37,106 bases of DNA from Corallococcus terminator. GTDB taxonomy: Bacteria > Myxococcota > Myxococcia > Myxococcales > Myxococcaceae. Position 1 is the first letter of the stretch, and each line of letters starts with the position of its first letter. The stretch lies in the NCBI RefSeq assembly GCF_003611635.1, contig NZ_RAVZ01000055.1, positions 1-37,106 of the forward strand, read 5' to 3'. Shown piece after piece: positions 1 to 33,397 of this stretch. The notes under the pieces are model-generated. The model did no database searches, was not told the origin of the DNA, and saw nothing but the letters and a program-made list of their open reading frames with translations. The translations under genes and the position numbers were made by a program.

Positions 1-81
1 CCCCGTTGGCGCCCGGACTCCATCGGAACCGGGGAGCACATCCGCCTTCCCCGCGCCGTGGAATCGACGAGGATGGACCCC

Positions 82-540: not shown

Positions 541-549
541 GGCCGTCGC

Positions 550-1068: not shown

Positions 1069-1118
1069 CGGGGGTTCCTCCAGAAGTGTCGTCCGTCATT
1101 CAAGGTGGAGGCACTTGT

Positions 1119-1169
1119 GTCCGGGGCAAGCGACAGGAACCGGCCGGGCCAGCGGCTCCGTCCCCGGAC
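1119..1169 (-). terminator. Inverted repeat, candidate terminator of the amidohydrolase gene
   Basis: Perfect 8-bp arms (GTCCGGGG at 1119-1126 and CCCCGGAC at 1162-1169) flank a 35-nt GC-rich spacer that itself contains CCGGCCGG. It lies between the amidohydrolase stop and the lipoprotein start. There is no U-tract, so this could be a factor-independent-like hairpin, a regulatory stem or chance in GC-rich DNA. Confidence 0.3.
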
Positions 1170-1188
1170 GCGCCCTTCCCCTCACGTC

Positions 1189-2523: not shown

Positions 2524-2773
2524 TGCTTGCGCTCCCTGGCCGGTGACGTGCTGGGGGTGAGGGTGATGGCGCCGGCCATCCCTCAAGGTGGAAGTTCCGC
2601 AAGGGGTGTCACAGGTGGAAGCCGGGAGGCGGGCGGGGGCTCGCGGGGGGCCCAGGGCGCCCGGCCCTCCAGGGTGCCGTGGGCCTTCGGGGAATCGCCT
2701 GTCCGTTCGTTGTCCGCCCATCCCTGGGAGGCCACCTTGAAGACGCGCAGACAACAGCGGAAAGGGAGCAGTC
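2524..2773. promoter_or_regulatory. Divergent intergenic region, presumed promoters
   Basis: A 250-nt region between the divergently transcribed amidohydrolase (-) and outer-membrane protein (+) genes; both promoters should lie here. Ribosome-binding sites are visible at each edge (GGGAG on both strands). I do not see a convincing -35/-10 pair. Confidence 0.4.
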
Positions 2774-3394: not shown

Positions 3395-3395
3395 C

Positions 3396-3431
3396 GGGAC
3401 TTCCACCCGCGGCCGTGTTCGCGGGGGTCCC
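3396..3431 (+). terminator. Compound hairpin terminator after the outer-membrane protein gene
   Basis: GGGAC (3396-3400) pairs with GTCCC (3427-3431), and inside it CCCGCG (3406-3411) pairs with CGCGGG (3420-3425) around an 8-nt loop. The structure starts right after the outer-membrane protein stop. No poly-U tract follows, which is common for terminators in high-GC genomes. Confidence 0.55.
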
Positions 3432-3457: not shown

Positions 3458-3493
3458 GTGCGGGCCCCCCGAAGCGCCCGCGTCTCCTCTCCC

Positions 3494-5690
3494 ATGCCCG
3501 TGACCCTGATCGATCTCCTCGAAGAGCGAAGCACGCGTCGTCCGGACCAGCGCCTCTACACGTTCCTGGAGGACGACGCGGAGGTCACCCTCACGCAGGG
3601 TGGACTGGCCTCGCATGCCCACCGCATCGCCGCCGCGCTCCAAGCCCTCGCTTCCGGAGGGGAGCGCGCGGTCCTGCTCTATCCGCCGGGTGCGGACTAC
3701 CTGGCTGGATTCTTCGGCTGTGTGTGTTCAGGCCTGGTGGCGGTGCCCGCGTACCCGCCGGATCCTTCCCGGCTGGAGCGCACCCTCCCCCGCCTGCGCG
3801 CGCTCATCGCGGACTCCGGGGCCACGGTGGTGCTCACCACCTCCGTCATCCTGTCCATGGCGGAGTTCCTCTTCACGGACGCGCCGGAGTTGCGCGCGCT
3901 GAAGTGGGTGGCGACGGACGCGTTGGAGGCGGGCGGTGAGTCCGCGTGGAAGCGGCCGGACGTGACGGCCGACACGCTGGCCTTCCTGCAATACACGTCC
4001 GGCAGCACGGGCACGCCCCGGGGCGTGATGCTCAGCCACGGCAACCTGCTGCACAACCTGGACGCCATCCGCCGCGCCTTCCAGACGCGCGACGACAGCG
4101 TGGGCGTCATCTGGCTGCCGCCGTACCACGACATGGGGCTCATTGGCGGCGTGCTGGTGCCGCTGGCCCAGGGCTTCCACACCGCGCTGATGTCGCCGCT
4201 GTCGTTCCTCAAGCGGCCGCGCGCGTGGCTGGAGGCGCTGACCCGCTTCGGCGGCACCATCAGCGGCGGTCCCAACTTCGCGTTCGAGTTGTGCGTGCGG
4301 CGCATCCCGCCCGCCGAGCGGGAGGGCCTGGACCTGAGCCGCTGGGAGGTGGCGTTCTGCGGCGCGGAGCCCATCCGTCCGGACACGCTGGCGCGCTTCA
4401 CGGAGGCCTTCGCGCCGCACGGGTTCCGCCGCGAGGCGTTCTATCCCTGCTACGGCCTGGCGGAAGGGACGCTCATCGTCTCCGGAGGCGCGAAGGAGGC
4501 GGCCCCCGTCCTGCGCGACGTGGACGCGACCGCGCTGGAGTCGGGCCAGGCACGTGAGCCGGCGCGACAGTCCCGGACGTTGGTGGGCTGCGGCGCGACG
4601 CTTCCGGGTCAGCGACTGCTCGTCGTGGAGCCGGACTCCGGCCGGGTGCTGGCGCCGGGCGAGGTGGGCGAAATCTGGGTGAAGGGGCCCAGCGTGGCCC
4701 AGGGGTACTGGCGGCAGCCGGAGGAGTCCGCGCGAGTCTTCGGCGCGCGCATCACCACGGGGGAAGGACCGTTCCTGCGCACCGGGGACCTGGGGTTCCT
4801 GGACGCGGGGGAGCTGTACGTCACCGGCCGCGCCAAGGACCTGATCATCCTGCGGGGCCGGAACCTGTACCCGCAGGACCTGGAGGCGGTGGTGGAGGAG
4901 AGCCACCCCGCGCTGCGGCCCGGGTGTGGCGTGGCGTTCGGCGTCGAGGTGGATGGCGAGGAGCGGCTCGTCGTGGTGCAGGAGGTGGATCCGCGCAAGT
5001 GGGACGGGGACGCGGCGCAGCTCCTGGGGACCTTGCGTCGGAGGCTGGCGGAAACGCATGAGGTGATGCCCCACGCGGTGGTGCTCATCGAACCCGGGAG
5101 CCTGCCGAAGACGTCCAGCGGCAAGGTGCAGCGGCGGGCCACGCGCACGGCGTTCCTGGAGGGAGGGCTGCGGGAGCTGCATGCGTGGCGTGCTCCTGGA
5201 ATCGACGCTCCGGAGACGCATGGCCCCGCCGCGGGCCGCGCATCCGGATCCGAGCAGCGGCACGCGCCTCCTCCGGCCTCGGCGCTGGAATCGCGCAGGG
5301 GCGCGAGGACGGAGGCGTTCGACGCGCACGCCTCGGCTTCGGAGCTGGAGTCCCACGTGCTCGCGCTGGTCGAAGCCCAGGAGGACAAGACCGATGCATC
5401 GGCATCGGAGCCGAAGCCGGTGAGCGGACTCGTCGCGCGTGCCCCGGCTTCGGAGCAGGAATCCCGCGTGCTCGCGCGGGTGGCGGCGCGACTGGGCTCT
5501 CGCGTCGAGGACCTGGATGTCCATGCGCCGCTGACGCAGTACGGGCTGGACTCGCTGGCGGCGGTGGAGCTGGCGCATGTGCTGGAGCAGGACCTCGGGG
5601 TGCCCGTTCCGATGGAAGCGCTGCTGCGCGGCGCGAGCACGGCGGAGCTGGTGCGCGAAGCGACGACGTCGAAAGCCGCTTCCCGTTCAG
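3494..5690 (+). other. Loading unit: fatty acyl-AMP ligase plus ACP
   Basis: The first ~560 residues are a FAAL-type adenylating domain, which activates a free fatty acid as acyl-AMP and passes it to the adjacent ACP. The P-loop TSGSTG (codons from 3995), the YGLAEGT block (~4450) and a C-terminal KTSSGKVQRRATR block (~5107-5146) are intact, so it should be active. The ACP follows at about 5465-5660 with the phosphopantetheine serine in YGLDSLAAVE (Ser codon 5552). Between them lies a linker with reiterated SELES / SEQES ... VLA motifs. This arrangement predicts an N-acylated product; chain length cannot be read. Confidence 0.9.
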
Positions 5691-8600
5691 CGCCGAGCCG
5701 CGTCCCGCGCACGGAGTCGATGCCGCTGTCCTTCGCGCAGGAGCGCCTGTGGTTCCTGGACCGCCTGGAGCCGGGCAGCGCCTTCTACAACGTCCCCATC
5801 GTGTCCCGGCTGGACGGAACGCTCGACGTGTCCGCGCTGGAGCAGAGCCTCCAGTTCCTCGTGCGGCGTCATGAATCCCTGCGCACCGTGTTCGTGGAGA
5901 CGCGCGGCGAGCCCGGCCAGCGCATCCTTCCGGAGCTGACGCTGTCGCTGCCCGTCGTGGACCTTGCTTCACTTCCCGCCGAAGCGCGCGAAGCCGAGGC
6001 CCGGAAGCTCGCGGACGAAGAAGCCCGCCGGCCCTTCGACCTGGCCCGGGGCCCCCTCATCCGGGTGGGCCTGCTGCGCCTGGACACCACCCGGCACTGG
6101 CTGCTGCTCACCGTGCACCACCTGGTCGCGGACGGCTGGTCCATGCGCGTGCTGCTGCGGGAGCTGGCGGAAGCCTACGCGGCGCTGTCCACCGGGTGCG
6201 TCCCCAGCCTGCCCGAGCCATCCCTCCAGTACGTGGACCATGCGTCATGGCAGCGCGCGTGGCTGCGCGGTGAGCGGCAGGAGGACCTGCTCGGCTGGTG
6301 GCGGGAGCATCTGGCCGGAGCACCGCCCGTGCTCGACCTTCCCGGGGATCGCCGCCGGCCCCGCGTACAGTCCTACCGGGGCGCCCAGCGGACCCACCGC
6401 TTGGAGAAGGCCGCGTGGGAGCGGGTGAAGACGCTCGCCTCACGCGAAGGCACCACGCCCTTCGTGGCGCTGCTCGCGGGCTTCCAGGTGCTGTTGCACC
6501 GCTACACCGGCCAGGAAGACCTGGTGGTGGGCGTGGACACCGCGCACCGCGCCCGTCCGGAGACCGCGGGCATCGTCGGCCTGTTCGTCAACCAGCTCCC
6601 CCTGCGCGCCGACCTCTCCGGCGCGCCGTCGTTCCGCGAGTTGCTGCGCCGCGCCCACCGCGCGTCCCTGGAGGCGTGGGCCCACCAGGACCTGCCCTTC
6701 GACGCGATGGTGCGCGGCCTCAACCCGGAGCGCAGCCTCGCGCACGCGCCCCTCTTCCAGGTGAAGCTCGTCCTCCAGGACGCCGCGTCCCACCCGGTGC
6801 ACCTGCCCGGCCTCACGCTGAGCAGCGCGCTCGGAGACACCGGCGCCACCAAGCTCGACCTCACGCTCTCCGTCACCGACTCCGGCAACGGACTGGAGCT
6901 GATGTGCGAGTACGCCACCGACCTCTTCGACGCGGACACCATCGCGCGGATGCTCGGGCAGTTGGACACGCTGCTGGCCGGGGCGGCGGAGCACCCCGGG
7001 CACGCCATCACGGCGCTGCCCCTGCTGACCCCGGAGGATCGCCAGCGGGTGATGGAGGCGTGGCGCACCCCGGGCATGGCCGTGTCCCCCGACCTCGCGC
7101 ACCAGCTCTTCGAGGCCCGGGTCCGGGCCACGCCCGACGCCATCGCCGCAGCGCTGGGCGAAACGACGCTGACGTACGCGCAGCTCGACGCTCGCGCCAA
7201 CCAGCTCGCGCGACACCTCATCGCGGTGGGGGTCCGACCGGATCAGGTCGTGGGCGTGCATCTGGAGCGCACCCCGGACCTGGTCGTGTCACTGGTCGGC
7301 GTGCTCAAGGCGGGCGGTGCCTTCCTGCCGCTGGATCCAGGGCACCCCGCAGCGCGACTGGAGGCGATGCTGCGCGAGGCAAGGGTGTCCGTGCTCCTGA
7401 GCAACGAGGCCCTGGCGGACCGGCTGGCGCCCCAGGGTGAGTTGCTGGTGCTGCTGGACGAGGAGCGCGCTTCACTGGAGGCCCGACCGGCCCTGCCCCC
7501 GGAGCCCGCGCCCGCCGTCACGCCCGCGCACCTCGCCTACGTCATCTTCACCTCCGGCTCCACCGGCACGCCCAAGGGCGCGCTCCTGGCGCACCACGGC
7601 CTGAGCAACACGGCGCTCCGCCTGGGCGAAGCGCTGAGGCTCGGTCCGGGCAGCCGCCTGCTGCAACTGGCGTCCATCGGCTTCGATGCCTTGGTGGTCG
7701 AGGTCTTCTGCGCCCTGCTGTCCGGCGCGACGCTGGTGCTCGCGGCCCCGGAGACCCTGCTCCCGGGGCCTCCGTTGCAGCAGGCCCTCGCCGCCGGGCG
7801 CATCACCACCCTCATCGCCACGCCCACCGCGCTGGCGCCCCTGGAGCCCTCCGCGCTGCCCCTGCTGCGGGTCGTGGCGTCCGTGGGCGAGGCCTGCACG
7901 CCGGAGCTGGCCGCGCGCTGGAAGCCGGGCCGCCGTTTCCTCAACGCCTACGGCCCCACGGAGATCACCGTCTGCGCGACGATGGACGTGGACGTGGACA
8001 CCGAACGTCCGTCCATCGGCCATGCCATGCCGGGCGCGAGCGTGTTCGTGCTCGATGGGCGCGGTGAGCCGGTGCCCATGGGCGTGCCGGGAGAGCTGTG
8101 CGTGGGAGGCGTGGGCGTGGCGCGCGGCTACCTGGAGCGGCCCGCGCTCACCGCCGAGCGCTTCATGCCCGACCCGTTCTCCCAGGAGCTTGGCGCCCGG
8201 CTGTACCGCACGGGAGACCGCGTGCGCACGCTGTCCAACGGCCGCCTGGAGTACCTGGGCCGCCGCGATGCCCAGGTGAAGGTGAATGGCATCCGCGTCG
8301 AGCTGGGAGAAGTGGAGGCCGTGCTGGCCCTGGTCCCGGGCGTGCGTCAGGCGGTGGTGCTCCCACGGGAGGTCGCGGGCGAGACGCGCCTCTGCGCCTG
8401 GATGGTGGCGGAGGAATCGCTGGAGCTTCCGGCCGTGCGCCGCTTCCTCAAGGAGCGGCTGCCCGACGCCTTCGTGCCTTCCGCCTTCGTGCGGCTGGAC
8501 GCCCTGCCCCTCACCCAGGGCGGCAAGCTGGACCGCCATGCCCTGCCCGCGCCCGGAGCCACGCAACCCGCTTCGGACGCACCCTTCACCGCTCCCGTCA

Positions 8601-11600
8601 CCGCCATGGAGCAGCGCATCGCCGAGGTCTGGGCGCGCGTGCTCGACGTGCCGCGCGTGGGCCTGCACGCGCACTTCTTCGAGGACCTGGGCGGTGGCTC
8701 ACTCCTGGTGGTGAAGGCCAGCACGCAACTGCGCGAGGCCCTGGGGCGGGAGATTCCCGTGACCCACTTCTTCGAACATCCGACGGTCGCCCAGCTCGCC
8801 GCGCGGCTGGAGCGCGACGCCACCGCGCCCCATCCCGCGCCCCGTCCGGAAGCTCCGCGCGAGGCCTCCGGGCAGGACTCCGGCGACATCGCCATCATCG
8901 GCATGGCGGGTCGCTTCCCGGGCGCTCCGGACGTGCACGCGTTCTGGCGCAACCTGCGCGAAGGCGTGGAGTCCATCACGCGCTTCGCCAAGGAGGAGCT
9001 GGAGCCGTCACCGCTGTTCGCGGACGCGCTGCGCGACCACCCCGACTTCGTGCCGGCCGGCGGCGTGCTGGAGGAGGCGGACGGCTTCGACGCCGCCTTC
9101 TTCGGCCTGTCCCCTCGCGAGGCGCAGTGGATGGATCCGCAGCAGCGCCTGTTCCTCCAGTGCGCATGGAACGCCCTCGAGGACGCGGGCTACGACGCGG
9201 AGCGCATCGCCGAGCCCGTCTCGCTGTACGCGGGCGCGGGCAGCTCCAACGTGCACCTGCTGTCCCTGCTGGGGCAGACGCGCAAGGACCCCGCCTCCCT
9301 GTTCGAGGCGCTGGGGACGAGCGGCGGCGAGAACGTGGCCACCAAGACGGCCTACAAGCTGAAGCTCGGGGGAGAGAGCCTCAACGTCTTCACGGCGTGC
9401 TCCACCGGCCTCGTCACGGTGCATCTGGCCTGCCAGAGCCTGCGCACCCGGCAGTCGGACCTGGCGCTGGCCGGCGCGGTGAAGGTGGCCCTGCCGCAGC
9501 GCACGGGCTACCTCTTCCAGGAGGGGATGATCCTCTCGCCGGACGGCCACTGCCGCGCGTTCGACGCGAAGGCCCGGGGCACCGTGCTGGGCAGCGGCCT
9601 GGGCGTGGTGGTGCTCAAGCGGCTCGCGGACGCCGTGCGGGATGGGGACCGCGTGTACGCGGTCATCAAGGGCTCCGCGCTCAACAACGACGCGGCGGCC
9701 AAGGTCAGCTACACCGCGCCCAGCATCCAGGGGCAGAGCCAGGTGGTGGCCCGGGCGCTCGCGGCGGCGGGCGTGGACGCGGACAGCGTGGAGTACGTGG
9801 AGGCGCACGGCACCGGCACCTCGCTGGGCGACCCCATTGAAGTCGCGGCCCTCACGCGGGCGTACCGGGCGCACACGCAGCGCACGGGCTACTGCGCGCT
9901 GGGTTCGGTGAAGACGAACATCGGGCACCTGGACACGGCCGCGGGCATCGCCGGCCTCATCAAGGCCGCCCTCGCCCTGCACCACGGCGAGGTGCCGCCC
10001 AGCCTCCACTTCGAACAGCCCAACCCGCAGATCGACTTCGCGCGCAGCCCCTTCTTCGTGAACACCACCCTGCGCCCGTGGGAGCGCACCGCAGGGCCCC
10101 GCCGCGCGGCCGTCAGCTCGTTCGGCATTGGCGGAACCAACGCGCACGTGGTGCTGGAAGAAGCGCCCACGCGTGAGCCCGTCTCCTCAGGCCGTCGCTC
10201 ACGGCAGCTCGTCACGCTGTCCGCCCGCACGCCCGCCGCGCTGGAGGCGGTGACGCGCGAGCTGGCGGACGCGGTGGAGGCGCGCTCCGACGTGGAGCTC
10301 GCGGACGTGGCCTTCACGCGCAATGTGGGCCGCAAGGGCTTCGAGGTGCGCCGCACGGTGGTCGCGGAGGACCTCGCCGGACTCGTGGAGGCCCTGCGCA
10401 AGCCGGGCACGACGTCCACCGTGCGCGACGTGGATGCGCCGCCCTCGCAGCGCGCGGCCTTCCTCTTCCCGGGTCAGGGCGCGCAGACCGTAGGCATGGC
10501 CCGCGAGCTGTTCGACACCGAGCCCCGCTTCCAGCAGGAGCTGGAGGCCTGCTTCGCGCTGCTGCCGTCCGTGGGGCTGACGCAGGACCTGCGGTCCGTG
10601 CTGTTCCCGTCGGCCGCGGAAGAGGCCCGGGCGCAAGCGGCCCTCGCCGAGCCCCGCTTCGCGCTGCCCGCGTTGCTCGCCGTGGAGGTCTCGCTCGCCC
10701 GGTGGTGGATGGGGCTGGGGTTCAAGCCCACCGCGCTGCTGGGGCACAGCTTCGGTGAGTACGCCGCGGCGTGCATCGCCGGGGTGCTGTCGCTGGAGGA
10801 CGCGCTGCGGCTGGCCGTGGTGCGTGGCGAGCTGATGTCGCGGCTGCCGGCGGGCGGAATGCTCGCGGTGGGCCTGTCCTCGGACGAGGTCCGCCCGCTG
10901 CTCTCCGACACGCTGGAGGTCGCGGCCATCAACGGAGCGGACCGCTGCACGGTGTCCGGACCGTTGGAGCCGCTGGCCGCGCTGGAGCGCACGCTCGTGG
11001 TGCGGCGCGTGGGCGTGGTGCGGCTGCCCGCGTCGCATGCATTCCACTCGCGCGACGTGGAAGCGCTGATGCCCGAGTTGGAGCGGGCCGTCGCGGGCCT
11101 GTCGCTGAAGGCCCCAGCCGTGCCGTACGTGTCCAGCCTCACCGGCACGTGGATCCGTCCGGAGGAAGCCACCTCGCCGCGCTACTGGGCGCGGCAGATG
11201 CGTGAGCCGGTGCGCTTCGCCGCCGGACTGGACACCCTGCTGCAAGCCGGCCACGGGCTGTTCATCGAGGCCGGTCCGGACCAGGGCCTCACCGCGCTCG
11301 CACGGCTGCGGCTGCGCACGGCGCCGGACACGGTGGCCGTGTCCTCGCTGCGCCGCGCGGGCACCTCCACGTCCGATGTCCAGACGCTGCTGGAGTCCGT
11401 GGGCACGCTGTGGCGCCTGGGCGCGAGCGTGGACTGGGAGGCCCTGCACGCCCACGGTCCCCGCCGTCGCATCTCGCTGCCGGGCTACCCGTTCGAGACC
11501 GTTCGCATCACGGTGGACGTCCGGCCCGTGCTGCCCCTGTCGGAGGTCGCTGCCGTGGCGGCGACGCATCCTCCAGTTCTTCCGGTGGCGGCCGTCGTCC

Positions 11601-14600
11601 CGGCGGCCGTCGTGCTCGCGCCGCCTGGCCTGAGCGACATCGAGCAACGGCTGATGGAACTGTGGCGCGAGCGGCTGGGCATCGCGGACATCGGCCTGGA
11701 CGACAACTTCCTCGACCTGGGCGGCAACTCGCTCATGGCGGCGCAACTGCTCACGCGGCTGCGCGAGACGTTCCACACGCAGGTGCCGCTGAGCGACCTG
11801 TTCGAAGCGCCCACGGTGGCGGGCCTCGCCGAGCGCATCGAAGCGCGGCTCCAGGCAGAGGGCCTGCTCGGCACGGAGCAAGGGGAGGCTCCCGCGGCGT
11901 CGGCGGCGGCCATCCAGCCCTGGCCCCGCACGGACCCGCTGCCCCTGTCGTACGTGCAGGAGCGCGTCTGGGAGATGGGGGCGCGGGAGCCGGGCAGCTC
12001 GCTGTTCAATGAGCCGCTCGCGGTCCGCGTCTCCGGCGCGCTGCGCCCGGACCTGCTGGAGCGCGGCGTCAACGAGGTCATCCGCCGCCACGAGTCGCTG
12101 CGCACCGTCTTCGTCGACGTGAACGGCCAGGGTGTGCCGCGCCTGCTGCCCGAGGTGCGCATCTCCATTCCCGTGGTGGACCTGCGCGGCTTCACCGGAG
12201 ACCTGGAGGCGGAAGCCCTGCGGCGCGCGCGCCTGGAGCCCGCGGCGCCGTTTGAACTGGACCGGGGCCCGCTCGTACGGGTGAGCCTGCTGCGGTTGGC
12301 GGACACCGAGCACGTGCTGCTCGTGACCATCCATCACATCGTCGCGGACACGCTGTCACTGGTGAACCTCATCCGCGAGGCGCTGGCCCTCTACACCGGC
12401 TTCGTGCACGGCGTGACCGTGCCGCTGCCGGAGCTGTCCATCCAGTACATCGACTTCACACTCTGGCAGCGGCAGGTGCTCGTCGACGGCACGCTCGCGG
12501 ATCAGCAGGCGTACTGGCGGCGTCAGCTCGCGGGACGCCCGGGGGCGCTGTCCCTGCCGCTGGACCGACCGCGCATCCCCGGAGCACGGCGGCGCGGGGC
12601 GCGGCACGGGTTCACCTTCACGGAGGAGCTGAGCGTCGCGCTGAACGCATTCAGTCAGCGCGAAGGGCTCACGGGGTACATGACGCTGCTCGCCGGCTTC
12701 ACGGCGCTCCTGGCCCGGTGCTCGGGTCAGGACGACATCGTCGTGGGCACGTCCATTGGAAACCGGACGCGGCCGGAGCTGGAGCCGCAGATCGGCTACG
12801 TGGCGCACGCGCTGGCACTGCGCACGAGCGCGGCCGGGGACCCGGACTTCCGCACGCTCGCGCTGCGCGTGCGCGACACCACGCTCGGGGCCTTCGCGAA
12901 TCCGGACGTGCCCTATGAGCAGTTGCTGGGAGAGCTGGAGCCCGGAGAGGAGCACCGGCTGGGCCGCCTGTTCGACGCCATCTTCCTGCTGCACGCGGAG
13001 AATGTGTCCGCGCCCATCGAGGACTTCCCCGGCCTGCGGCTGGTCTACTACGACGTCACCGAGCTGCCCGCGCAGTACGGCACGTCGCTCGCGGACCTCA
13101 CGATGCTGATGCGGGAGGACGCCCGGGGCTTCTCCGGAACGCTGGAGTACGCCGTCGACCTGTTCGACGCGGACACCATCGCGCGGCTGCTGTCCCAGTT
13201 GCAGGCGCTGCTCTCCGACGCCGTCGCCTCGCCCACGAAGCCGCTGTCCCGGCTGTCGCTGGATGCGATGCCCGCGCGAGCACGGAGCACCGAGGTCCAG
13301 GTCGCGGCCAACGGCTCGCTGCTGGCCCTGCTCGCATCCCGCGCGGAGCAGACCCCGGACGCGGTGGCCGTGCGTCAGGACGAAGCGGTCCTGTCGTGGC
13401 GGTCGCTGCGGGAGAAGGCGCTGGGCCTCGCGGAGCACCTGCGTGCACGAGGCGTGGGCCCCGGTGTTCCGGTCGCCGTGTGCCTGGAGCCTTCCCCCAA
13501 CCGCGCCGTCGCGCTGTGGGGCGTGCTGTCGGCCGGGGGCGCGTACGCGCTGGTGTCGCGTGACGGGATTGAGGAGCTGGCCTCGCTCGGACGCGATGGC
13601 GCTCTGGTCCTGGTCGTGAGCGACGGAACGCTCACCCTGCCACCCGGCGTCTCCGCGTCCGTCCTCAACATCGACGACGCTTCGGCCGGCGGGATACGGA
13701 CACCCGGGCTGAAAGCCTCCGTGGACCTGGACGGCCTTGCCTGCCTTGCACGCGAAGGGACGGACACGGCGCGGCCCCGCGTGATGTTGAGCCACCGCAA
13801 CCTCGTCCACCGGCTCGCCGCGCTGGATGCGCGCGTGGAGGCACGGCCGGGCGAGCTGTGGCTGAGCACCACGGATGCCGCTTCCGACCCGGCGGACCTG
13901 GAGCTGCTGTGGGCCCTTTCCCGTGGGCTCCCCGTGGTGCTGCCGTCGCGGGGCGCCTTCCGGGAGGAACCCCGCCGGACGGGCGCGCCCACGAAGCGGG
14001 CCCTGGACTTCAGCCTCTTCTACTTCGCCAATGACGCGGAGGAGTCGGGGCGGAAGAAGTACCAGTTGCTCATCGACGGCGCGAAGTTCGCGGACGCCCA
14101 CGGGTTCAGCGCCATCTGGACGCCCGAGCGCCACTTCCACGACTTCGGGGGCCCCTACCCCAGCCCCACCGCCACCAGCGCCGCACTGGCCATGGTCACC
14201 GAACGCGTGTCCATCCGCGCGGGCAGCGTTGTGCTTCCGCTGCATGATCCGCTGCGCGTCGCGGAGGAGTGGTCCGTCATCGACAACCTCTCCAACGGCC
14301 GCGCGGGCGTGTCCTTCGCCACGGGCTGGAACGCGAACGACTTCGTCTTCGCCCCCCAGAACTTCCACCAGCGTCCGGAGGCCGTGCGCCGGGGCGTGGA
14401 GGAGGTGCGCACGCTATGGAAGGGCGGCACGGTGCGCCGCACCAACGGCGCGGGCGTGGAAGTGGACATCGCCATCCGTCCCCGCCCCGTGCAGGCGGAG
14501 CTGCCGGTGTGGATCACCGCCGCCTTCAACCCGGAGACCTTCCGGCTCGCGGGCGAGCTGGGCACGGGCCTGCTCACCAACGTGCTGGGCCTGGGCCAGG

Positions 14601-17600
14601 ATTTCGTGGAGCTGGAGCGCAAGGTCGCCATCTACCGCGAGGCCCGGCGCAAGGCCGGACACCCGGGCCGTGGCCACGTCGTGCTGATGCTCCACACCTT
14701 CGTCACCTCCAGCCGCGAGGACGTGAAGCGTCAGGCGCGGGAGCCCCTGCTGCGCTACTTCCGCAGCTCCGTGGAGCTGGTGAACGGGCTCGTGGCCAGC
14801 CAGGGCCCGGGCTTCGATGTGCGCTCGCTCACGCCCCAGGACCTGGACGTGCTGTTGGAGCAGGGCGTGTCGCGCTACCTGGAGTCGGGCGGTTTGTTCG
14901 GCACGCCGGATTCGCTGGAGGCTCGCGTGGAGCAGTTGCGGCAGGCCGACGTGGACGAGGTGGCCTGCCTCATCGACTTCGGCATCGCCCCCGACATCAC
15001 CCTGGAGGGCCTGCGGCACCTGGATGTGCTGCGCCAGCGCAGCCAGGTGTCCTCCGCGCCCGCCACGGAGTCTCCGCACGTCGAGGTGGACCGCGCCGGA
15101 ATGCTCGCGCGGCTGCTGCGCACGGCGCCGTCGGTCCACCTGCGTGGCTCCTTCGAGAGCGCGCGGATGCTCGCGGAGCTGCCGGATGCGGCGAGCGTGA
15201 TGGGGCCGGTGCGCACGCTGGTGCTGGACGACGCGGAGGGGCTGTCGCCGGACCTCGCGCGTGCGCTCCAGCGCGCCACCTCCGCGCGGATCGTGTCGCC
15301 CGTGTCGCTGCTGCCAGGGGCCCGTGAGGCCACGGCCCCAGGGCCGCGCTTCGTGCTGGATGGCGCCGGCCGGCGTGCGCCGGTGGGCGTGGTGGGTGAG
15401 CTGTTCCTGGGCGGGGATGCCGTGCCGCTCGGATTCTGGAAGGCCCCGGAGTTGACCCAGGAGCGCCTGCCTGCGTCACCGGAAGGCACGGGCGCGCGGC
15501 TCTACGGCACCGGCACTCGGGCGCGCTATCGAACGGACGGCGAGGTGGAGCTGCTGACGCCCACCCTCCGCGCACCGCCCACGTCCCCGGCTTCGACCCC
15601 GGGCATGGCGGCGAGGACCGTGACGGCAGGGGATGCCGCATCAAGGCCCGCGCCACTGCCGGGTGTCCCCGCGCATGCGACCTCGCTGCCGAACAGCCAC
15701 GCCCGGTCCACCCTCCCGACGGGTGCCACTGCGCCCGGTGTGACGTCGCAAGGCGCAACGGCCCACGCTACGCAAACGGGTGCCACCGCGCACGCTGCGA
15801 CACCACAAGGTGCCGCCCGCGCCACGCAGCAGAGTGCCGCCACGCACACGGCAACACCGCAAGGTGCCACGGCCCGCGTCACGCCGCCGGCCGCACCCGC
15901 GCGCGCCACCGCCCCTGGCTCGCAGTCCATCCAGCGCGTGCCCCGCACGAGGCCCCTGCCGTTGTCGTTCGCGCAGCAGCGGCTGTGGTTCCTGGACCAG
16001 TACGAACCCGGCAGCGCGCTCTACAACATCCCGTCCGCGATGCGCCTGGAGGGCACGCTGGACGTGTCCGCGCTGGGCCGCGCCTTCGCGGAGGTGATGC
16101 TCCGCCATGAAGCCCTGCACACCACATTCCGCGTCCAGGACGGCGACGCCATCCAGGTCATCACGCCCAGCAGCGTGGACTCCGCATTGGAAGTCGAGGA
16201 CCTGAGCGACCTGCCCGCCGCCGAACGCGAAGCCGAGGCCCAGCGCCGCGTCCGGGAGGAGGCCCGCGCCCCGTTCGACCTGTCGCGAGGTCCCCTGCTG
16301 CGCACCCGCCTGCTGCGCCTCGCGGAGCGCGAGCACCTGCTGCTCGTCACGATGCACCACATCGTCTCCGACGGCTGGTCCATCGGCGTGCTCATCCGTG
16401 AAGCCGTCATGCTGTATGAAGGCTTCACGGCCGGCCGGCCCGCGCTCCTGCCGGAGCTGCCCATCCAGTACGCCGACTTCGCCGTCTGGCAGCGTGACTG
16501 GCTCCAGGGCGCGCTGCTGGACAAGCAGCTCGCGTACTGGCGCAAGCAGCTTGAGGGCGCGCCTCCCGCGCTGGAGCTGCTCCCCGACCATCCGCGCACG
16601 GGCGACACCAGCAACCCCGGCGCCACGCACCGGGAGCTGTTCCCGCACGCGCTGATGCAGGGCCTGCGAGCGCTGTGCCGCCGTGAGAAGGGCACGCTCT
16701 TCATGGGCCTGCTCGCGGGCCTCCAGGCGCTGCTGTCGCGCTACACGGGCCAGGACGACGTCAGCATCGGCGCGCCCATCGCCGGCCGCAACCAGCCGCA
16801 GACCGAGGGGCTCATCGGCTTCTTCGTCAACACGCTGGTGCTGCGCACGAAGCTGGACGGCGACCCGACCTTCATGGAGCTGCTGCGCCGGGTGAAGGCC
16901 GTGACGCTGGGCGCGTACGCGCACCAGGACGTGCCCTTCGAGAAGCTGGTGGAAGCACTGCAACCGCCCCGGATGGCGGGCCACACGCCCTTCTTCCAGG
17001 TGACGCTGGTGCTGCTCAACACGCCAGCGGTGGAGCTGACCGGCCCGGGCCTCACCTTCCGCACGGTGGACGTGGACAGCGGCGCGTCCAAGTTCGACTT
17101 CACCCTCGTCTTCACCGAATCGCCGCGCGGGCTCCAGGTCGCCTTCGAATACCGCAGCGACCTCTTCGAGGCGACCACCGCCGCCCGAATGGTGGAGCAC
17201 CTGCGCGTGCTCTTGGAGGACGCGGTCACGAACCCCGAGCGCCGCCTCTCCGAACTCAACTTCCTGACCGACACCGAACGCCAGCGCGTGCTCGTGGATG
17301 GGAGCCCGCCTCCGTCCGGAGGCCCCGCCGAACCGCCCGTGCATGAAGCCTTCGAAGCCCAGGCCCGGCGCACGCCCGACGCCGTGGCCGCCCTCTTCGA
17401 GGACCAGCCCCTCACGTACGCGGAGCTGGAGCGCCGCGCGAACCAGCTCGCATGGCATCTGCGCGACAGTGGCGTGCTCCCGGGAGACCGGATCGCCCTG
17501 TGCCTGGAACCGTCGCTGGAGCTGCTGGTGGGCGTGCTCGGCGTCCTCAAGTCAGGCGCGGCCTTCGTCGCCCTGGATCCGGGCGCCGCCGAGGAGCACC

Positions 17601-20600
17601 TGACCTTCATCCTGAAGGACTCCGGCTCGCACACGGTACTCACCCAATCGAAGCTCATACCCAGGCTTCCCCCGACGCGCGCGCGCGTGGTGTGCGTGGA
17701 CACGGAGGCCGCGACCTTCGCCCGGTTCCCGTCCCACGCCCCACCGTCCTCCAGCGAGCCGGATTCGCTTTGCACCCTGCGCTACACGTCCGTCAGCACG
17801 GGACGTCCCCGGGGCATCGCGGTGGCGCATCGGACGCTGTCCTCGGAGGTGACGTGGACGCGCCAGCGCTCGTCCAAGGTGGACGCCGTCACCTTGCAGT
17901 TCGCATCGCTCGACGGGGCCACCGCCTGCCAGGAACTGTTCACGCCCTGGTCCGTGGGCGCCTGCGTGGTGGTGCCCTCGTCACGGACGCGTCAGGACCC
18001 TCCGACGCTGCTGGCGTTCATGGCCCGTCACGGAGTGGAGCGGGTGTTCCTGCCGTTCATCGCGCTGCGGCTGCTGGCGGACGCGGTGGCCCATGGCGCC
18101 CCCGTGCCGGAGCGGCTCGTGGAGGTGGTGACGTTCGGTGAGCCGGCGCAGGTGACGCCCGCGCTCGTAGCCCTCTTCCAACGGTTGCCCCACGCCACCC
18201 TGCGAAGACAGTACGGCCCGTCCGAAGCCCACGGCGTCGTCGCCCACCGCCCGAGCGGTCCGCCAAGCACGTGGGAGCGGCTGCTCCCCCTGGGCAGGCC
18301 CGTGCCCGGCACGCGGCTGTACATCGTGGATCCCACCGGGCGCCCCTGCCCCACGGGCGTTCCCGGCGAGGTGTGGGTCGGCGGTCCACAGGTGGCGCTC
18401 GGCTACCCCGCGCGCCCGGAGCTGACCGCGGAGCGGTTCGTCCCGGACGGCCTCTCCGGCGAAGCGGGCGCACGGCTGTACCGCACCGGAGACCGCGCCC
18501 GCTGGCGTGAGGACGGCACCGTCGAGTTCCTCGGTCGGCTCGACAGCCAGTTGCGCGTGCGCAGCTTCCGCATCGAGCCCGGCGAGGTGGAAGTCGCCCT
18601 GCTCGGCGTCCCTGGCGTGCGCGAGGCGGCGGCGCTGGTGCGCGAGGACGTGCCCGGCGACAAGCAGCTCGTGGGCTACGTGGTGCTCCAGCCGGATACC
18701 GCCTGGGAACCGGAAGCCCTCCGGCAGGCCCTGGGACGCAGCCTGCCGGAGTCCATGCTGCCCGGCGCGCTGATGCGCCTGGACGCGCTGCCGGTGACGC
18801 CCTCGGGCACGCTGGCGCACGGGCTGCTTCCCGCGCCGGAAGGGGTGGGCCTCCAGGCAGGGGCGCGCCCCACCACGCCCCGGACGCGGCTGGAGCAGAC
18901 GCTGGCGGACATCTTCGCGCAGGTGCTGGGCGTGGAGAGCGTCGGCATCACCGACAGCTTCTTCGACCTGGGTGGACACTCGCTGCTGGCCACGCAGGTC
19001 GCCTCACGCCTGCGCAACGGCCTGGGCGTGGACGTGCGACTGCGCGAGGTGTTCGACCACCCCACGGTGGAGACCCTCGCCCGCCGCATCGAGGAGCGCG
19101 TGCCCGAAGCGGAACGCGCGCCGCGGCCGCCCGCCATCACCGCGCGGCCCGGCGTCACGTCCGCCGTGCTGTCCTTCGCGCAGCAGCAGATGTGGTTCCT
19201 GGACCAGTACCAACCGGGCACCGCGCTCTACAACATCCCCGCCGCGATGAGCATGGAGGGCCTGGTGGACGTCCCCGCGCTCACCGGGGCCTTCACGGAG
19301 CTCGCGCGCAGGCATCAGGTGATGCGCACCACGTTCCAGGAACTAGACGGCACCGTCACCCAGGTCTTCGCGCCCCCCGCGCCGTGGACGCTGTCGGTCG
19401 AATCGCTGGAGCACCTTTCTCCCGAGCAACGCGAGGACGAGGCCGGGCGCCGGGCGCAGGAGGAGGCCCGCGCCCCGTTCGACCTGGCACGGGGGCCGCT
19501 CCTGCGCACGCGCCTGCTGCGGCTCGCGGAGCGCGAACACCTGCTGATCGTCACGATGCACCACATCATCGCCGACGGCTGGTCCATTGGCGTGCTCATC
19601 CACGAGCTGGTCGCGCTGTACGAGGCGAACCTCGCCGGCCGGCCCGCGCCCCTGCCGGAGCTGCCCATCCAGTACGCGGACTACGCCACGTGGCAGCGTG
19701 ACTGGCTGCGCGGCGAAGTGCTGGACAGACAGGTCGCCTACTGGCGCAAGCAGTTGGCGGGGGTACCTCCCGCGCTGGACGTTCCCACGGACCATCCGCG
19801 CGACGCGGACGCCGGGACCCCGGGCACGTGGCTGGCCATGGAGCTGCCGCTGGAGCTGGTGCAAGCCCTGCGCGCCCTCTGCCAGCGCGAAGGCGCCACG
19901 CTGTTCATGGGCCTGCTCGCCGGACTCCAGGCACTGCTGTCGCGCTACTCCGGCCAGGACGACATCCGCGTGGGCGCGCCCGTCGCGGGCCGCACGCAGG
20001 CGGAGACCGAAGGCCTCATCGGCGTCTTCGTCAACACGCTGGTGCTGCGCACGAAGCTGGACGGCGACCCCACCTTCCGCGAGCTGCTGGGCCGGGTGAA
20101 GGACGTGACGCTGAGCGCGTACGCGCACCAGGACGTGCCCTTCGAGAAGCTGGTGGAGGTCCTCCGGCCTCCGCGCATCTCGGGCCGCACGCCCTTCTTC
20201 CAGGTGGCGCTGGTGGTGCTCAACACGCCGTCGGCGGAGCTCGCCGTGCCGGGCCTCCAGATGAATCTGCTGGAGCTGGACAGCGGCACCGCGAAGTTCG
20301 ACTTCAGCCTCACGTTGAGCGAATCCCCCCAAGGCATCCGGGGCACGCTGGAGTACCGCACCGACTTGTTCGAAGAGGCCACCGCCGAGCGGCTGGTGAC
20401 ACACCTGCACGCGCTCCTGAAGGACGCGGTGGCCCATCCCGAGCAGCGCCTGTCCACGCTGTCGTACCTGTCCGAGGAGGAGCGGCGACAGCTCCAGGTG
20501 GACAGCCGCCCCCGTCCCGCCCTCACCGTGACAACGACGGACCCCGGCGGCACCGCAGCGCGCACGCCCCCCGCGCAGGCGCCACTCGTCGCGCCACGAA

Positions 20601-23600
20601 CGCCGTTGGAGCCGCCGACGACGGACGGACGAGCGGACACGTCACCGCGCCGGAGCATGGGCGCGACCATCGCGCCGCGCACCATCGAGGCGCCCGCGTC
20701 CTTCACGCAGCAGCGGCTGTGGCTCCAGGAATCACAAGCGCCGAACCGCCCGCGTTTCCACCCGACCGTCGCGCTGCGCGGGGAAGGCACCCTGGACGCG
20801 GAAGTCCTCCAGCGGGCCTTCACGGAGCTGGTGCGACGGCACCCCTCGCTTCGCACCACCTTCCGCGCCCATGACGGCCGGCCCGTCCAACGCATCCACG
20901 CCGCCACGGCGTTCCCGCTGACGGTGGAGGACCTGCGCGCGCTGGAGCCGGACCGCCGGGAAGCAGAGGTCCAGCGACGGACGCGGGAGCAAGCCCGCGC
21001 TCCGTTCGACCTGGCGAAGGGACCGCTCCTGCGCGTGGGACTCCTGCGCCTCGCAGAGCGGGAGCACCTGCTGCTCATCACGCCGCACCCCCTCATCGCC
21101 GACGGTGCGTCCATGGACCTCCTCCGCCGGGAGCTGGGGACGCTCCACGAAGCCTTCACCGCCGGGATGCCGTCCCCCCTGCCGGAGCTGCCGCTCCAGT
21201 ACGCGGACTACGCCACCTGGCAGCAGGAAGCCCTCCAGGGCGAGCTCCTGGAGGAACAGCTCGCGTATTGGCGCGGCCAGTTGGAGGACGCACCGCCGGG
21301 CTCGGAGCTGCCCATGGACCACCCGCGCACCGGCGAGGAGGATCCGCCTGGTGCCTCCCTGCCGGTGGCGCTGTCCGCCACGTTGACGAAGGACCTCGCG
21401 GCCCTGTGCCAGCGTGAAGGCGCCACGTTGTTCATGGGCCTGCTCGCGGGCCTCCAGGCCGTGCTCGCGCGACACGCGGGCCAGGACGACATCACCGTGG
21501 GCGCGCCCGTCGCGGGCCGCACGCAGGCGGAGATGGAGGGGCTGGTCGGCGCCTTCAGCAACACGCTGGTGCTGCGCACGAAGCTGGACGGCGACCCCTC
21601 GTTCCGGGAACTGCTGGGCCGGGTGAAGGCCGTGACGCTGGGCGCGTTCGCGCACCAGGACGTGCCCTTCGAGAAGCTGGTGGAGGTGCTCCAGCCTCCC
21701 TCCCGGCGCGGCGTGGCGCCCTTCTTCCAGGTGGCGCTCTCGCTCCAGGAGGGGCCGTCCACGGCGCTCGCGTTCCCCGGCATCGCATTCCATCGGGTGG
21801 AGACGGACCGGGGCACGCCCCGCTTCGACCTGTCGCTCACCCTGGCCGAAACGCCGTCGGGCCTGCGAGGCTCGCTGGAGTACCGGGCGGACCTCTACGA
21901 GGTGGAGACCGTCACCCGGTTGAGCGAACACCTGCGCCTGCTGCTGGAAACGGCGGTGGCGGAGCCCACGCGGCGGCTGTCCACGCTGTCGCTGCTCTCC
22001 GACGCGGACCGGCACCGCGTGCTCGTGGAATGGAACGCGACCGCCGTGCCGTACCCGCGTGACACGGCCGTGCATGCGTTGTTCGAAGCCCAGGCCGCGC
22101 GCACGCCGGAGGCCGTGGCGGTGGAGTTCCAGGGCCAGACGCTCACCTACGCGGCGTTGGATCGCCGGGCCAACCAGCTCGCGTGGCACCTGCGCAAGAG
22201 CGGCGTGAGGCCGGGCGCGAAGGTGGCGCTGCTCCTGGCGCGCTCGCTGGAAGTGCCGGTGTCGGTGCTCGGCATCCTCAAGGCAGGAGCGGCCTACGTC
22301 CCGCTGGATGCCGAAGCGCCCCTGGAGCGGCTGTCCTTCTTCCTGGAGGACACCGGCGCGGCGCTGGTCCTCACCTCGGAGGCGATGCAGGACCACCTGC
22401 CCGCCGGCGCCCCCCGAATCCTGCTGCTCGACACGGAAGCGGCGCGCCTCGACGCGGAGCCGGACACGGCGCCGGGGTCCCCCCAGGGAGGAGACGCGCT
22501 CGCGTACGTCCTCTACACCTCCGGCACCACTGGCCGACCCAAGGGCGTCTGCGTCCCGCACCGGGCCATCGTCCGGCTGGTGGTGGGCACGGACTTCGCG
22601 AGGTTCGGAGCGGACGAGGTCTTCCTGCAACTGGCCCCACTCGCCTTCGACGCTTCGACCTTCGAGCTGTGGGGCTGCCTGCTGCACGGAGGCCGCCTGG
22701 TGATGGCCGACCCGAAGGCCACGTCCCTGGAGGAGCTGGGCCGCACGCTGGACGCACACCACGTCACCACGCTGTGGCTGACGTCCGCGCTCTTCGAACA
22801 GATGGCCGCCACGCAGCCGGAAGCCCTGGCCCGCGTGCGCCAGGTCCTCGCTGGCGGTGATGTGCTCAACCCGGTGCGCGTGCGGGAACACGTGGCCCGG
22901 GCAGGACAATTGGTGAACGGCTACGGCCCCACCGAGGGCACCACCTTCACCACCTGCCACGTGATGACCGACGCGAGCGCGGTGGATGCGCCGGTGTCCA
23001 TTGGCCGGCCGCTCGCCAACACGCGCGTGTACGTGCTCGACGCGCACCTGCGGCCCGTGCCGCCGGGCGTGCCCGGGGAGCTGTACGTGGCGGGAGACGG
23101 ACTGGCCTGGGGCTACCTCCAGCAGCCCGCGCTCACCGCGGAGCGGTTCCTGCCGGATGCGTTCAGCGACGTGCCGGGAGCGCGGATGTACCGCTCCGGC
23201 GATCAGGTCCGCTGGAAGGCGGACGGCACGCTCCAGTTCCTCGGCCGCCGCGACACGCAGGTGAAGCTGCGCGGCTTCCGCGTGGAGCCGGGCGAAATCG
23301 AGGCCGTGCTCCTGGGACACCCGTCGGTGCGCGAAGCGGTGGTGCTCGCACGCGACGACATGCCGGGAGGACGGGCGCTGGTGGCCTACGTGGTGCCCCG
23401 CGCCCCGGAGGCCTCCTCGCACGCCGGGGCCTCGCCGCTGCTGGAGATCGCGGCCCTGCGCGACTGGCTGCGGGAGCGGCTGCCCGGGTACCTGGTGCCC
23501 ACGGCCATCGTCCAGCGGGCCTCGCTGCCCGTCACCCGCAACGGCAAGGTGGACCGCCGCGCCCTTCCCGCCCCCGAGGCTCCGGGCACGGAGGGCGGCG

Positions 23601-26600
23601 CCGTCCAGCCGCGCACGGACACCGAGGCCCGGCTCGCGTCGCTGTGGAACGGGCTGCTCGGAACGAAGGGCGCGGGCCCGAAGGACGACTTCTTCGAGCT
23701 TGGCGGCCACTCGCTGCTCGCGACACAGTTGTTGTCGCGCATCCGCGCCACCTTCGCCGTGGAGCCCCGGCTCCAGGAACTCTTCGAAGCGCGCACGCTG
23801 GAGGCCCAGGCGGCGATGGTGGAGGCCGCCCTCGCCCGCGCCGTCCGGATCCAGACGCCCCCGCTGCGTCCCGTACCGCGCCAGGGGAACCTGCCGCTGT
23901 CGTTCGCGCAGCAGCGGCTGTGGTTCCTGGACCAGTACCAGCCAGGGCTTCCCGTCTACAACATCCCGGCCGCGATGCGGCTGCACGGCGCCGTGGATGA
24001 GGGGGCGTTGGAGCGCGCCTTCACGGAGCTGCTGCGCCGCCACGAATCCCTGCGCACCACCTTCGCCTCCGACGCGGGCACGCCCGTCCAGGTCATCACC
24101 CCGAAGGCGTCCTTCCCGCTGCCCGTGGAGGACCTGCGAGCGCTGGCGGAGCAGGAGCGGGAAGAGGCCGCCCGCCGCCTGTCGGAGGAGGAAGCACGAC
24201 GGCCCTTCGACCTTGCCCGGGGACCGCTGCTGCGGGCCCGGCTGCTGCGGTGGTCGGAGCAGGAGCACCTGCTGCTCGTGACGATGCACCACATCGTCTC
24301 CGACGGCTGGTCCATGGCCATCCTCATCCGGGAGATGGTCGCGCGGTACGAAGCCGAGCGCTCCGGCCAGCCACTGGCGTTGCCGTCGCTGCCCGTGCAG
24401 TACGCGGACTACGCCGTCTGGCAGCGCGAATGGCTCCAGGGGGACGTGCTCCAGAGGCAGTTGGATTACTGGCGTCACCAGCTTGCAGGAGCCCCCTCGG
24501 CGCTGGAGCTGCCCACGGACCGTCCCCGGGGCGCGAACTCGCGCCAGCCGGGCGCGAACCTCCCGCTGCTGTTGCCCCGCACGCTGGCGCAGGACCTGAC
24601 GGTGCTGTGCCAGCGCGAGGGCGCCACGCTGTTCATGGGCCTGCTCGCGGGCTTCCAGGCCGTGCTCTCCCGCTGGGCGGCGCAGGACGACATCAGCGTG
24701 GGTGCGCCCATCGCCGGCCGGACGCGCAAGGAGACCGAAGGGCTCATCGGCTTCTTCGTCAACACGCTGGTGCTGCGCACGAAGCTGGAAGGCAACCCCA
24801 CCTTCCGCGAACTGCTGGGCCGCGTGAAGCGCGTCACGCTGGAGGCCTACGAGCACCAGGACGTGCCCTTCGAGAAGCTGGTGGAGGTGCTCCAGCCGAA
24901 GCGTCAGCTCGAAGGCACCCCGTTCTTCCAGGTGTCGCTGGTGCTGCTCAACACGCCGGCCGCGGAGCTGTCGCTGCCGGGGATGCGCATCGAATCGCTC
25001 CCGGTGGATTCGGGCACCGCGATGTTCGACCTCTCGCTCACCCTCACGGAGAAACCCGAAGGGCTGGAGGGCGGGCTGGAGTACCGCACCGACCTCTACG
25101 ACAGGGCCACGGTGGAGCGCCTCATGGGGCACCTGCGCGTGCTCCTGGAGGACGCGGCGGCCCATCCGGAGCGGCGCCTGTCCGACCTGGCCCTCCTCAC
25201 GGAAGCAGAGCGACAGCAGACGCTCGGCGAATGGACGCGTGCGCGCGCCGACTTCCCGCGCGACACGGCCGTCCACGCGCTGTTCGAAGCCCAGGCCCGG
25301 GCGACGCCCGACGCCGTGGCCGTGGAGCATGACGGCGGCACCGTCACCTACCAGCGGTTGGAGGCACGCGCGTCCGGGCTTGCCCGGCACCTGCGGACGC
25401 TCGGCCTTCCCACCGGAGCACGGGTGGCCCTGTTCCTGGAGCGCTCGCACGCGCTGCCCGTGGCGATGCTGGGCACCCTCAAGGCCGGCGCGACCTATGT
25501 GCCGCTGGACTCCGCCTCACCGCCGGAACGGCTCGCCTTCCAGTTGGAGGACGCGGGCGTCACGGTGCTCCTCACCGAGCCACGGCTGCGCGACCGCCTG
25601 CCCGCCTTCAAGGGGCGCATCATCGAGGTCGAGTCCGCCCCTCGGTCCGACACCGGAGGGACGCCGCTCCCCGACGTGGATCCGGACGTGCCCGCGTACG
25701 TGCTCTACACGTCCGGCAGCACAGGCCAGCCCAAGGGCGTGCTGATCTCCCATCGCTCGCTGGCGAACCATGCGACGTGGATGGGGACCACCTTCAGGCT
25801 GGGAGCCGGGGACCGGCAGCTCCAGTTGGCGGCCCTGGGCTTCGACGCCTCCGCCGCGGAGCTCTTCTCCACGCTCCTGTCCGGCGCCACGCTCGTGCTC
25901 GCGCCCCCCGAGGCCCAGCGCGATGTCGCGCTCCTGGCGGACACGCTGTCCCAGCAGCGCATCACCGTCCTCCAGGCCGTGCCCTCCGTGCTGCGCCTCC
26001 TGGTGGTGGAGCCCGCGTTCGCGAAGGCCACGCACCTGCGCCTGCTCTTCTGCGGCGGTGAAGTGCTGACGCCGGACCTGGCCACGCGGCTGCGTGCGGT
26101 GGCGCCGGCGGTCCGGCTCATCAATGCCTACGGTCCCACGGAGACGACCATCGACGCGACGTGGTCGCCTGTCACCGGCGAGGAGTCCGGCGCGACGGTG
26201 CCCATCGGCCGTCCGGTGGCCAACGCGGAGGTCTACGTGCTGGACACCGCGCAGGGGCCCGTGCCCATCGGCGTCCCGGGAGAGCTGCACCTGGGCGGCG
26301 TGCCCCTGGCGCACGGCTACCTGGGCCGTCCCGCCCTCACCGCGGAACGCTTCATCCCCCACCCCTTCGCCACCGAGCCCGGCGCCCGGCTGTACCGCTC
26401 AGGAGACCGGGTCCGCTGGCTGCCCGACGGACGCCTCCAGTTCCTCGGCCGGCTCGACCAGCAGGTGAAGCTGCGAGGCCTGCGCGTCGAGCCCGGCGAG
26501 GTCGAAGCAGCGCTCCTCCTGCACCCCGATGTGCGCGAAGCCGCGGTCGTGGTCCGCGACGATGGGGCCCACGGCCCCGCGCTGGTGGCCTACGTCGTCT

Positions 26601-31045: not shown

Positions 31046-31114
31046 CCACAGCCACGCGGAGCATCCGCCCGCGCATCGACACCGAGTCCCTGAGCTCCGT
31101 GGGCGCAGCGTCCA

Positions 31115-32519: not shown

Positions 32520-32524
32520 GGCCG

Positions 32525-33349: not shown

Positions 33350-33350
33350 G

Positions 33351-33384: not shown

Positions 33385-33397
33385 AACCCCAACGCCC

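Follow-up and report, generated by a model that had tools for sequence, protein, structure and literature searches.

What does an oxygenase do inside an adenylation (A) domain that can no longer activate an amino acid? The question is raised by a 37,106-nucleotide stretch of the Corallococcus terminator genome (contig NZ_RAVZ01000055.1; hereafter the window), in which a luciferase-like monooxygenase (LLM) domain, here called MOX, interrupts a degenerate A domain (dA). The region in question, 13310-15945, falls inside a single synthetase open reading frame (ORF), between the second acyl carrier protein (ACP2) of a polyketide synthase (PKS) module and the condensation (C) domain C3, and it is preceded by an unusual C domain that we term C*. 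The reading that we favor, with moderate confidence, is that ACP2-C*-dA-MOX constitutes a non-elongating, in-line oxidation station, derived from a C-A(Gly)-MOX-T module (T, carrier domain) that lost its carrier and its A-domain activity. On sequence comparison, the dead-A MOX unit is no single oddity and belongs to a large class within one bacterial family, which extends the picture beyond the original prediction made for this locus alone.

The oxygenase (14009..15034; all features described here lie on the forward strand) is complete, as first proposed. TIGR04020 aligns over its full length (1-341 of 341) to residues 234-575 of the translated stretch, with a score of 490 bits (cut-off 244.45), and PF00296 matches with an E value of 7.3e-44. 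The closest solved structure is the OX domain of PuwE (PDB 6KET; E = 1.5e-109, 49% identity, Foldseek TM score of 0.90 on the target). Conserved columns were defined as those with one residue in at least 95% of 47 MOX sequences outside class II (the group, described below, that includes the window), PuwE among them; the window keeps 51 of these 52 columns, the exception being L195, which is Val here. Judged by conservation within the family, the flavin-site residues, whose loss had been named as grounds for rejecting the proposal, are retained. Nei-Gojobori counts over the 45 pairs of ten Corallococcus-set orthologues give a median omega of 0.15 for MOX, 0.145 for the C-terminal A-domain remnant (dA_C), 0.26 for C3, 0.28 for C*, 0.39 for the N-terminal remnant (dA_N) and 0.49 for the linker ahead of C3. 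The median identity of MOX in this set is 94%. Its omega and conserved columns rule out a pseudogene, and on these alignments MOX is intact and under purifying selection. On values of 0.15 and 0.145 versus 0.39, selection preserves MOX and, unexpectedly, the A6-A7 remnant, whereas the N-terminal part of the host is drifting. From its membership in the TIGR04020 family, MOX is predicted to bind flavin mononucleotide (FMN) and to oxidize a carrier-bound acyl group.

The host A domain is dead. A hidden Markov model (HMM) built from the five A domains of the window matches it only at positions 2-213 and 317-387 of 492. These two segments, dA_N (13349..14005) and dA_C (15284..15565, covering A6-A7), stand before and after MOX, which is thus nested within the A domain. 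Motifs A3 (P-loop), A5 (YGPTE), A7, A8 and A10 (Lys) are all absent from the host and all present in domains A1, A3, A4 and A5 elsewhere in the synthetase, in line with the claimed loss of the P-loop, YGPTE, the A7 Asp and everything from A8 onward, including the Lys. The A7 position reads YGTGT where YRTGD is expected, and the host lacks what defines a functional glycine-activating A domain of the MtaG/MelG type. No T domain follows it, again as predicted. In the 296-residue gap from MOX to C3, a T-domain HMM attains 0.2 bits, versus E values of 2.7e-27 to 1.4e-39 for its seven source carriers, and a Pfam scan of the stretch at E up to 1 returns PF00296 and PF00501 only, with no carrier. A cryptic T domain was likewise rejected across class II, where T-HMM matches with an E value of 10 or less turn up in 58 of 75 gaps and none exceeds 1.9 bits. 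The carrier-less, fast-evolving linker (15566..15952) is rich in Ala, Pro and Thr; it spans 75-135 residues in the Corallococcus-set class II orthologues and mostly 17-67 in other class II members, a few reaching 166. A predicted structure of C*-dA-MOX-dA (1196 residues, 26 sequences) has a mean predicted local distance difference test (pLDDT) score of 74 and a predicted TM score of 0.38, with most of dA_C below a pLDDT of 50. At this confidence the model bears on the individual folds only, and Foldseek recovers those of a C domain, an A domain and an LLM from it.

With so much lost, the whole C*-dA-MOX block could be an inert relic, kept only because its deletion would disturb spacing. Such a relic would be expected to carry the dead A domain, the missing carrier and the altered C* motif, and to lie beside modules that are themselves decaying, as the next ones are in this strain. 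It would hardly be expected to hold the omega of MOX below that of C3, to keep 94% median identity and nearly every conserved column, or to leave MOX in place at three loci that have dropped the A domain. We regard this explanation as highly improbable, with the proviso that every locus was found through its own MOX, so that loss of the domain is invisible in our sample.

Relatives were gathered from several sources. Of 147 genomes in the bacterial class, 64 have a TIGR04020 match above the cut-off, and the genome of the window holds seven further A-MOX places. When one genome per species (84,980 species) was scanned with six peptide patterns, 31 loci with relatives emerged; 15 of these (L019-L033) represent myxobacterial lines with the layout of the window, L031 being without the A remnant. 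A search of plasmids for closely similar DNA gave no match. To the 31 scan loci were added 100 + 10 fetched loci, hand-picked from lists ranked by similarity to the window MOX or to TIGR04020. The resulting 140 MOX matches, less two partial ones (L158, L182) and 14 exact duplicates, leave 124 distinct sequences: 75 of class II, 22 of class I, two with the order KS-AT-T-gap-MOX-C (KS, ketosynthase; AT, acyltransferase) and 25 others that are free-standing, cut or differently laid out. Because the loci were picked from similarity-ranked lists, the class II fraction should not be read as a prevalence. Three of the 25 others (L015, L016, L018) are class II units cut by contig ends and were included in the C*, PKS-neighbor and conserved-column counts. 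Six later loci, four of class I and two of the aminotransferase type by position, were kept out of the counts.

Class I is the form with an intact host A domain. Its 22 rows retain host A motifs 3, 5, 7 and 8 and the Lys (all five in 20 rows, one missed in two), with a T domain next. The preceding C domain, where visible, reads HHxxxDG in 17 rows and HHxxxDA in three. The host A code is DILQ[LM]GM[IV]W, a glycine-type code, in 21 of 21 rows read; A-domain codes were assigned with a reference fragment and, outside class I, count as weak. These rows, and PMC11342130, bear out the earlier statement that a host A domain of the MtaG/MelG type is followed by a carrier.

Class II was defined by an A remnant after MOX, or by identity with one of four named loci, plus a C domain next. 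The following C domain is therefore definitional, and the absence of motifs, the HHxxxDT signature, the PKS module and the clade are independent of the definition. None of the 75 rows contains any A motif. One or both remnants are present in 72, which rejects chance resemblance as their explanation, and the remnant has been excised in the other three. Mixed forms, with a dead A and a T domain or an intact A without one, do not occur among the rows classified. Class II ranges over one bacterial family that includes Corallococcus, Myxococcus, Pyxidicoccus and Archangium; two of the four genomes with a match beyond that family were examined, and both hold class I (L184, L185). The window unit shows all four class II features, namely a dead A domain, no T domain, a C* with HHxxxDT and a position after a PKS module without ketoreductase (KR), and it is placed in the class II clade.

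Several other arrangements were encountered. In L097, L122 and L162, overlapping ORFs separate the front half of the A domain from MOX; two of these lie in single-contig genomes, and the frame breaks could reflect sequencing error or natural fission. Three Flavobacterium loci (L034, L035, L036) have the order C-MOX-A-T, with MOX ahead of the A domain rather than inside it and a C motif of HHxxxDS. In four ORFs of 881-1213 residues (L011, L173, L174, L175), the only recognized domains are a C-like match, weak or lacking its motif, and a MOX downstream of it. In the two KS-AT-T-gap-MOX-C rows, which follow the PuwE plan, the gap was scanned in L171, where Pfam identifies an aminotransferase (the other row is L180); an aminotransferase is also present in the three Streptomyces/Kitasatospora loci scanned.

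The upstream neighbors of class II are fixed. The order is KS-AT-T-C*-(dA)-MOX in 72 of 73 visible rows (three of the 73 are cut downstream by a contig end); the remaining row, truncated so that the KS is missing, reads AT-T-C*-dA-MOX. The KS motif TACST occurs in 72/72 rows (with the exact pattern EAHGTGT in 43/72) and the carrier motif GGNSL in 73/73; the AT reads HAFH in 67/73 and YAFH in two, with no motif found in four. The AT-T gap spans 57-299 residues in 70 rows, too short for a domain the size of a KR, and the modules are therefore KR-less. The same is true of the window, where the KS (8900..10177, active-site motif FTACST) and the AT (10460..11407, with the malonyl-type motifs GHSFGE and HAFH) are followed after a gap of 78 residues by ACP2 (11639..11872, carrier motif GGNSL). 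Its unit thus stands directly after a KR-less PKS module, where the original prediction had placed it. An upstream C domain is absent from the same ORF in five of the 75 class II rows, owing to the choice of region (L010, L013), a contig end (L124) or frame breaks (L097, L122).

The second constant is C* itself (C2, 11936..13300), a condensation-type domain in which HHIVADT replaces HHxxxDG. HHxxxDT is found in 77/77 C* domains (73 labeled, and four with MOX in another piece or ORF), in 0/20 C domains of class I, in 0/77 of those after MOX and in 0/215 other C domains with the motif listed (of 217). C3 (15953..17305) reads HHIVSDG. On these counts, C* with its HHxxxDT motif, the PKS module and MOX form one conserved unit.

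Phylogeny indicates how this unit came about. In a 56-row tree, all 25 chosen class II rows form one clade (ultrafast bootstrap 100; Shimodaira-Hasegawa-like approximate likelihood ratio test, SH-aLRT, 99; recovered in 100% of 200 bootstrap trees), nested in a larger group (92/87) that also takes in all but one of the class I rows (21 of 22). PuwE clusters with the aminotransferase type (100/99) in another clade. A quick 124-row tree agrees, joining class II and its three cut kin with an SH-aLRT of 99, and the sampled C* domains also form one clade (34/34 rows, support 100). Judged from these trees, class II arose once. Because class II is nested among class I, the class I hosts have glycine codes and A remnants persist in class II, the direction of change is read as C-A(Gly)-MOX-T to C*-dA-MOX.

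At three loci the process has gone further. Only 14-18 residues separate C* from MOX, and 26-74 separate MOX from C3, in L031 and L105, which share one genome, and in L096; the A scaffold is nearly gone, with a short A7-like scrap left in L031, but C* and MOX remain. With the scaffold almost wholly excised, the freeing of the oxygenase has been taken to completion. In the tree, L105 adjoins L027 (91/78) and L096 adjoins L028 (88/84). Because L027 and L028 both still carry the remnant, more than one excision event is likely on these branch placements. The earlier suggestion that the oxygenase was freed from amino acid activation to become an in-line station thus gains from two cleanly separated classes, a dead class that forms one nested clade, and three loci in which the A domain is almost absent. 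Intact, dead and excised hosts coexist in living genomes as a graded series, a rare view of an embedded domain becoming free.

How might such a station work? The KS-AT-ACP2 module, with a malonyl-type AT and no KR, would leave a beta-keto thioester on ACP2 that has an acidic alpha-CH2 from malonate. C* would dock ACP2 and present its chain to MOX instead of condensing; since the carrier of its own module has been lost, C* would have no acceptor of its own and would be unable to elongate. With FMNH2 and O2, MOX would oxidize the carbon next to the thioester, and C3 would then condense the oxidized chain onto T2 with the next amino acid. By analogy with related enzymes, the reaction is probably alpha-hydroxylation of the ACP2-bound beta-keto thioester. 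We infer ACP2 as the substrate carrier, the alpha position and C* as a platform; the anatomy of the unit, its losses, its conservation, its origin and its neighbors are observed.

Alternatively, MOX could act on an amino acid or peptide held by a T domain, either T2 (once C3 has acted) or T1. The class II module has no carrier of its own (best T-HMM score of 1.9 bits in 75 gaps), and either neighboring carrier might serve; in the class I relatives, the same domain is said to oxidize glycine on a T domain (PMC11342130). The constant association of class II with the upstream PKS module and its carrier motif argues against a T-bound substrate, while the downstream A code varies between lines. Moreover, two of the five MOX residues that set class II apart from class I, R247 and L250, recur in PuwE, an enzyme located behind a PKS carrier; the other three do not. 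An oxidation on T2 or T1 therefore seems to us distinctly unlikely.

A second alternative keeps ACP2 as the carrier and changes the chemistry. MOX might oxidize the beta-keto thioester more than once, or by a Baeyer-Villiger reaction, shortening the chain and leaving an alpha-keto acyl unit that becomes an alpha-ketoamide after C3. The KR-less PKS module that precedes class II wherever visible fits this course. Myxoprincomide reportedly contains 2-oxo-beta-leucine, which corresponds to Val plus malonate minus one carbon, and locus L135 encodes what may, by its protein length, be the myxoprincomide synthetase. Extended to the class, the idea is that KS-AT-T(GGNSL)-C*(HHxxxDT)-dA-MOX might act as a compound super-module that arose a single time within Myxococcaceae and converts a malonyl-extended amino acid into an oxidized, shortened alpha-keto unit, an alpha-ketoamide maker with C* as the oxygenase platform. 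We offer this as a tentative and rather doubtful proposal. Precedent for chain shortening exists in the LLMs CalD and MndB, which, according to PMC8739492, alpha-hydroxylate and then carry out Baeyer-Villiger oxidation. Among the sequence features that we looked at, none separates single from double oxidation, and we consider the latter unlikely, if less so than a substrate on T2 or T1.

Several observations weigh against the oxidation station as we describe it. C* retains both His residues of HHxxxD, and a condensing role is compatible with its sequence. Some of the 52 conserved columns are less strictly preserved across class II (R86 33%, L195 53%, T233 85%, H45 87%; 78 rows), and only two of its five class-specific MOX residues are those common to PuwE. 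The omega of dA_C equals that of MOX even though the host is dead; this suggests a leftover structural role for the dead scaffold, though three loci do without dA_C. No flavin reductase or transporter was recognized among the ten window ORFs scanned. The alpha position is assigned by analogy, the analogues are mostly proposals themselves, and Baeyer-Villiger chemistry or over-oxidation would leave the same sequence. Finally, the changes downstream of C3 described next imply that this copy may no longer make its full product.

Decay in this strain extends over 17369-22036. In A2-T2 (17369..19123), A2 reads TSVSTGRPRG and RSFRIEP and lacks the A10 Lys, and it is intact in the five orthologues compared. 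The window also lacks an A-T pair between C4 and C5, which follows C4 in the four orthologues that reach that far, and the C5 active site is HPLIADG rather than HHxxxDG. Distances to the outgroup for the window versus Corallococcus praedator are raised in A2 (0.252/0.105), C4 (0.196/0.078) and C3 (0.127/0.076) and are close in FAAL (the fatty acyl-AMP ligase; 0.093/0.087), C* (0.121/0.126) and MOX (0.059/0.056); A1 falls between (0.167/0.132). By these comparisons, the window line may be losing modules here.

The synthetase ORF as a whole (3458..31042, 27.6 kb, 9195 codons) begins with GTG and ends at a stop codon at 31043-31045. Domain HMMs built from the synthetase itself give the order FAAL-ACP1-C1-A1-T1-KS-AT-ACP2-C*-dA-MOX-dA-C3-A2-T2-C4-C5-A3-T3-C6-A4-T4-C7-A5-T5-TE. 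The loading domain FAAL (3485..5227) is named from its position and sequence type and precedes ACP1 (5456-5692). Module 1, C1-A1-T1 (5717..8842), has intact A1 motifs and the specificity-code letters DAVIAVAVC, and the ORF closes with a terminal thioesterase (TE, 30245..31027). The flanks (1-3400 and 31100-37106) encode a DUF188 protein, an M20 peptidase, an acyltransferase-3 protein and endonuclease I. The host genome comprises 10.35 Mb in 863 contigs, and the closest named relatives of the stretch, Myxococcaceae isolate PMG_225 and C. praedator, reach 81-82% in the best segment.

If the assignment holds, the combination of C* with HHxxxDT, a dead A-MOX and no carrier is a marker that separates residue-adding from oxidize-only stations in dozens of uncharacterized myxobacterial synthetases. 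Class II modules may at present be miscounted as elongating, with products predicted one residue too long, and the units are natural templates for putting an oxygenase into an engineered assembly line. Neither the oxygenase family nor its fusion with an A domain is new. A dead-A, carrier-less MOX class with HHxxxDT, its single origin and its excision series did not appear in the accessible parts of the literature searched, which covered few subscription journals; the original myxoprincomide paper (Cortina 2012) may already describe one such module.

Among known systems, the myxoprincomide synthetase (MXAN_3779, Myxococcus xanthus), a similarity suspected in the original prediction, may itself belong to class II: the 14284-residue ORF L135, a candidate for this enzyme that was read around MOX, has the same KS-AT-T-C*-dA-MOX-dA-C block. 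The A-MOX-T modules of MtaG and MelG resemble the window in having MOX nested in an A domain, and class I relatives in the same bacterial family share the glycine-type codes described for them. The window departs from them in its dead A domain, its missing carrier, its HHxxxDT-bearing C domain and its position behind a KR-less PKS module; the comparison with MtaG is by description. According to PMC11342130, the A domains that house the MOx domains of the myxothiazol and melithiazol pathways recruit glycine, these MOx domains hydroxylate its C-alpha so that glyoxylate remains on the T domain, and corallorazine-like clusters have a MOx within A2. PuwE OX of puwainaphycin and the KS-AT-T-AMT-MOX-C lines (AMT, aminotransferase) share with the window a MOX, 49% identical in PuwE, that stands in line between a PKS carrier and a C domain and has no carrier of its own. 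They differ in that an aminotransferase precedes MOX, where the window has C* and dA_N, in lacking C* and any A remnant, and in that their MOX belongs to another clade. In PMC4219810, PuwE OX is proposed, together with the aminotransferase, to form the 3-amino-2-hydroxy unit of puwainaphycin, acting at the 2-position; similarly, the alpha-hydroxyl of palmerolide is attributed to a MOX relative, also as a proposal, in PMC8739492. For C*, the closest parallel is the X domain of glycopeptide synthetases, which serves P450s as a platform (PMC8949500). Both are C-type domains with an altered HHxxxDG motif that act, or in the case of C* would act, as a platform beside oxygenase chemistry. The X domain recruits separate P450s, whereas the window carries its oxygenase in the same chain and its C* retains both His residues.

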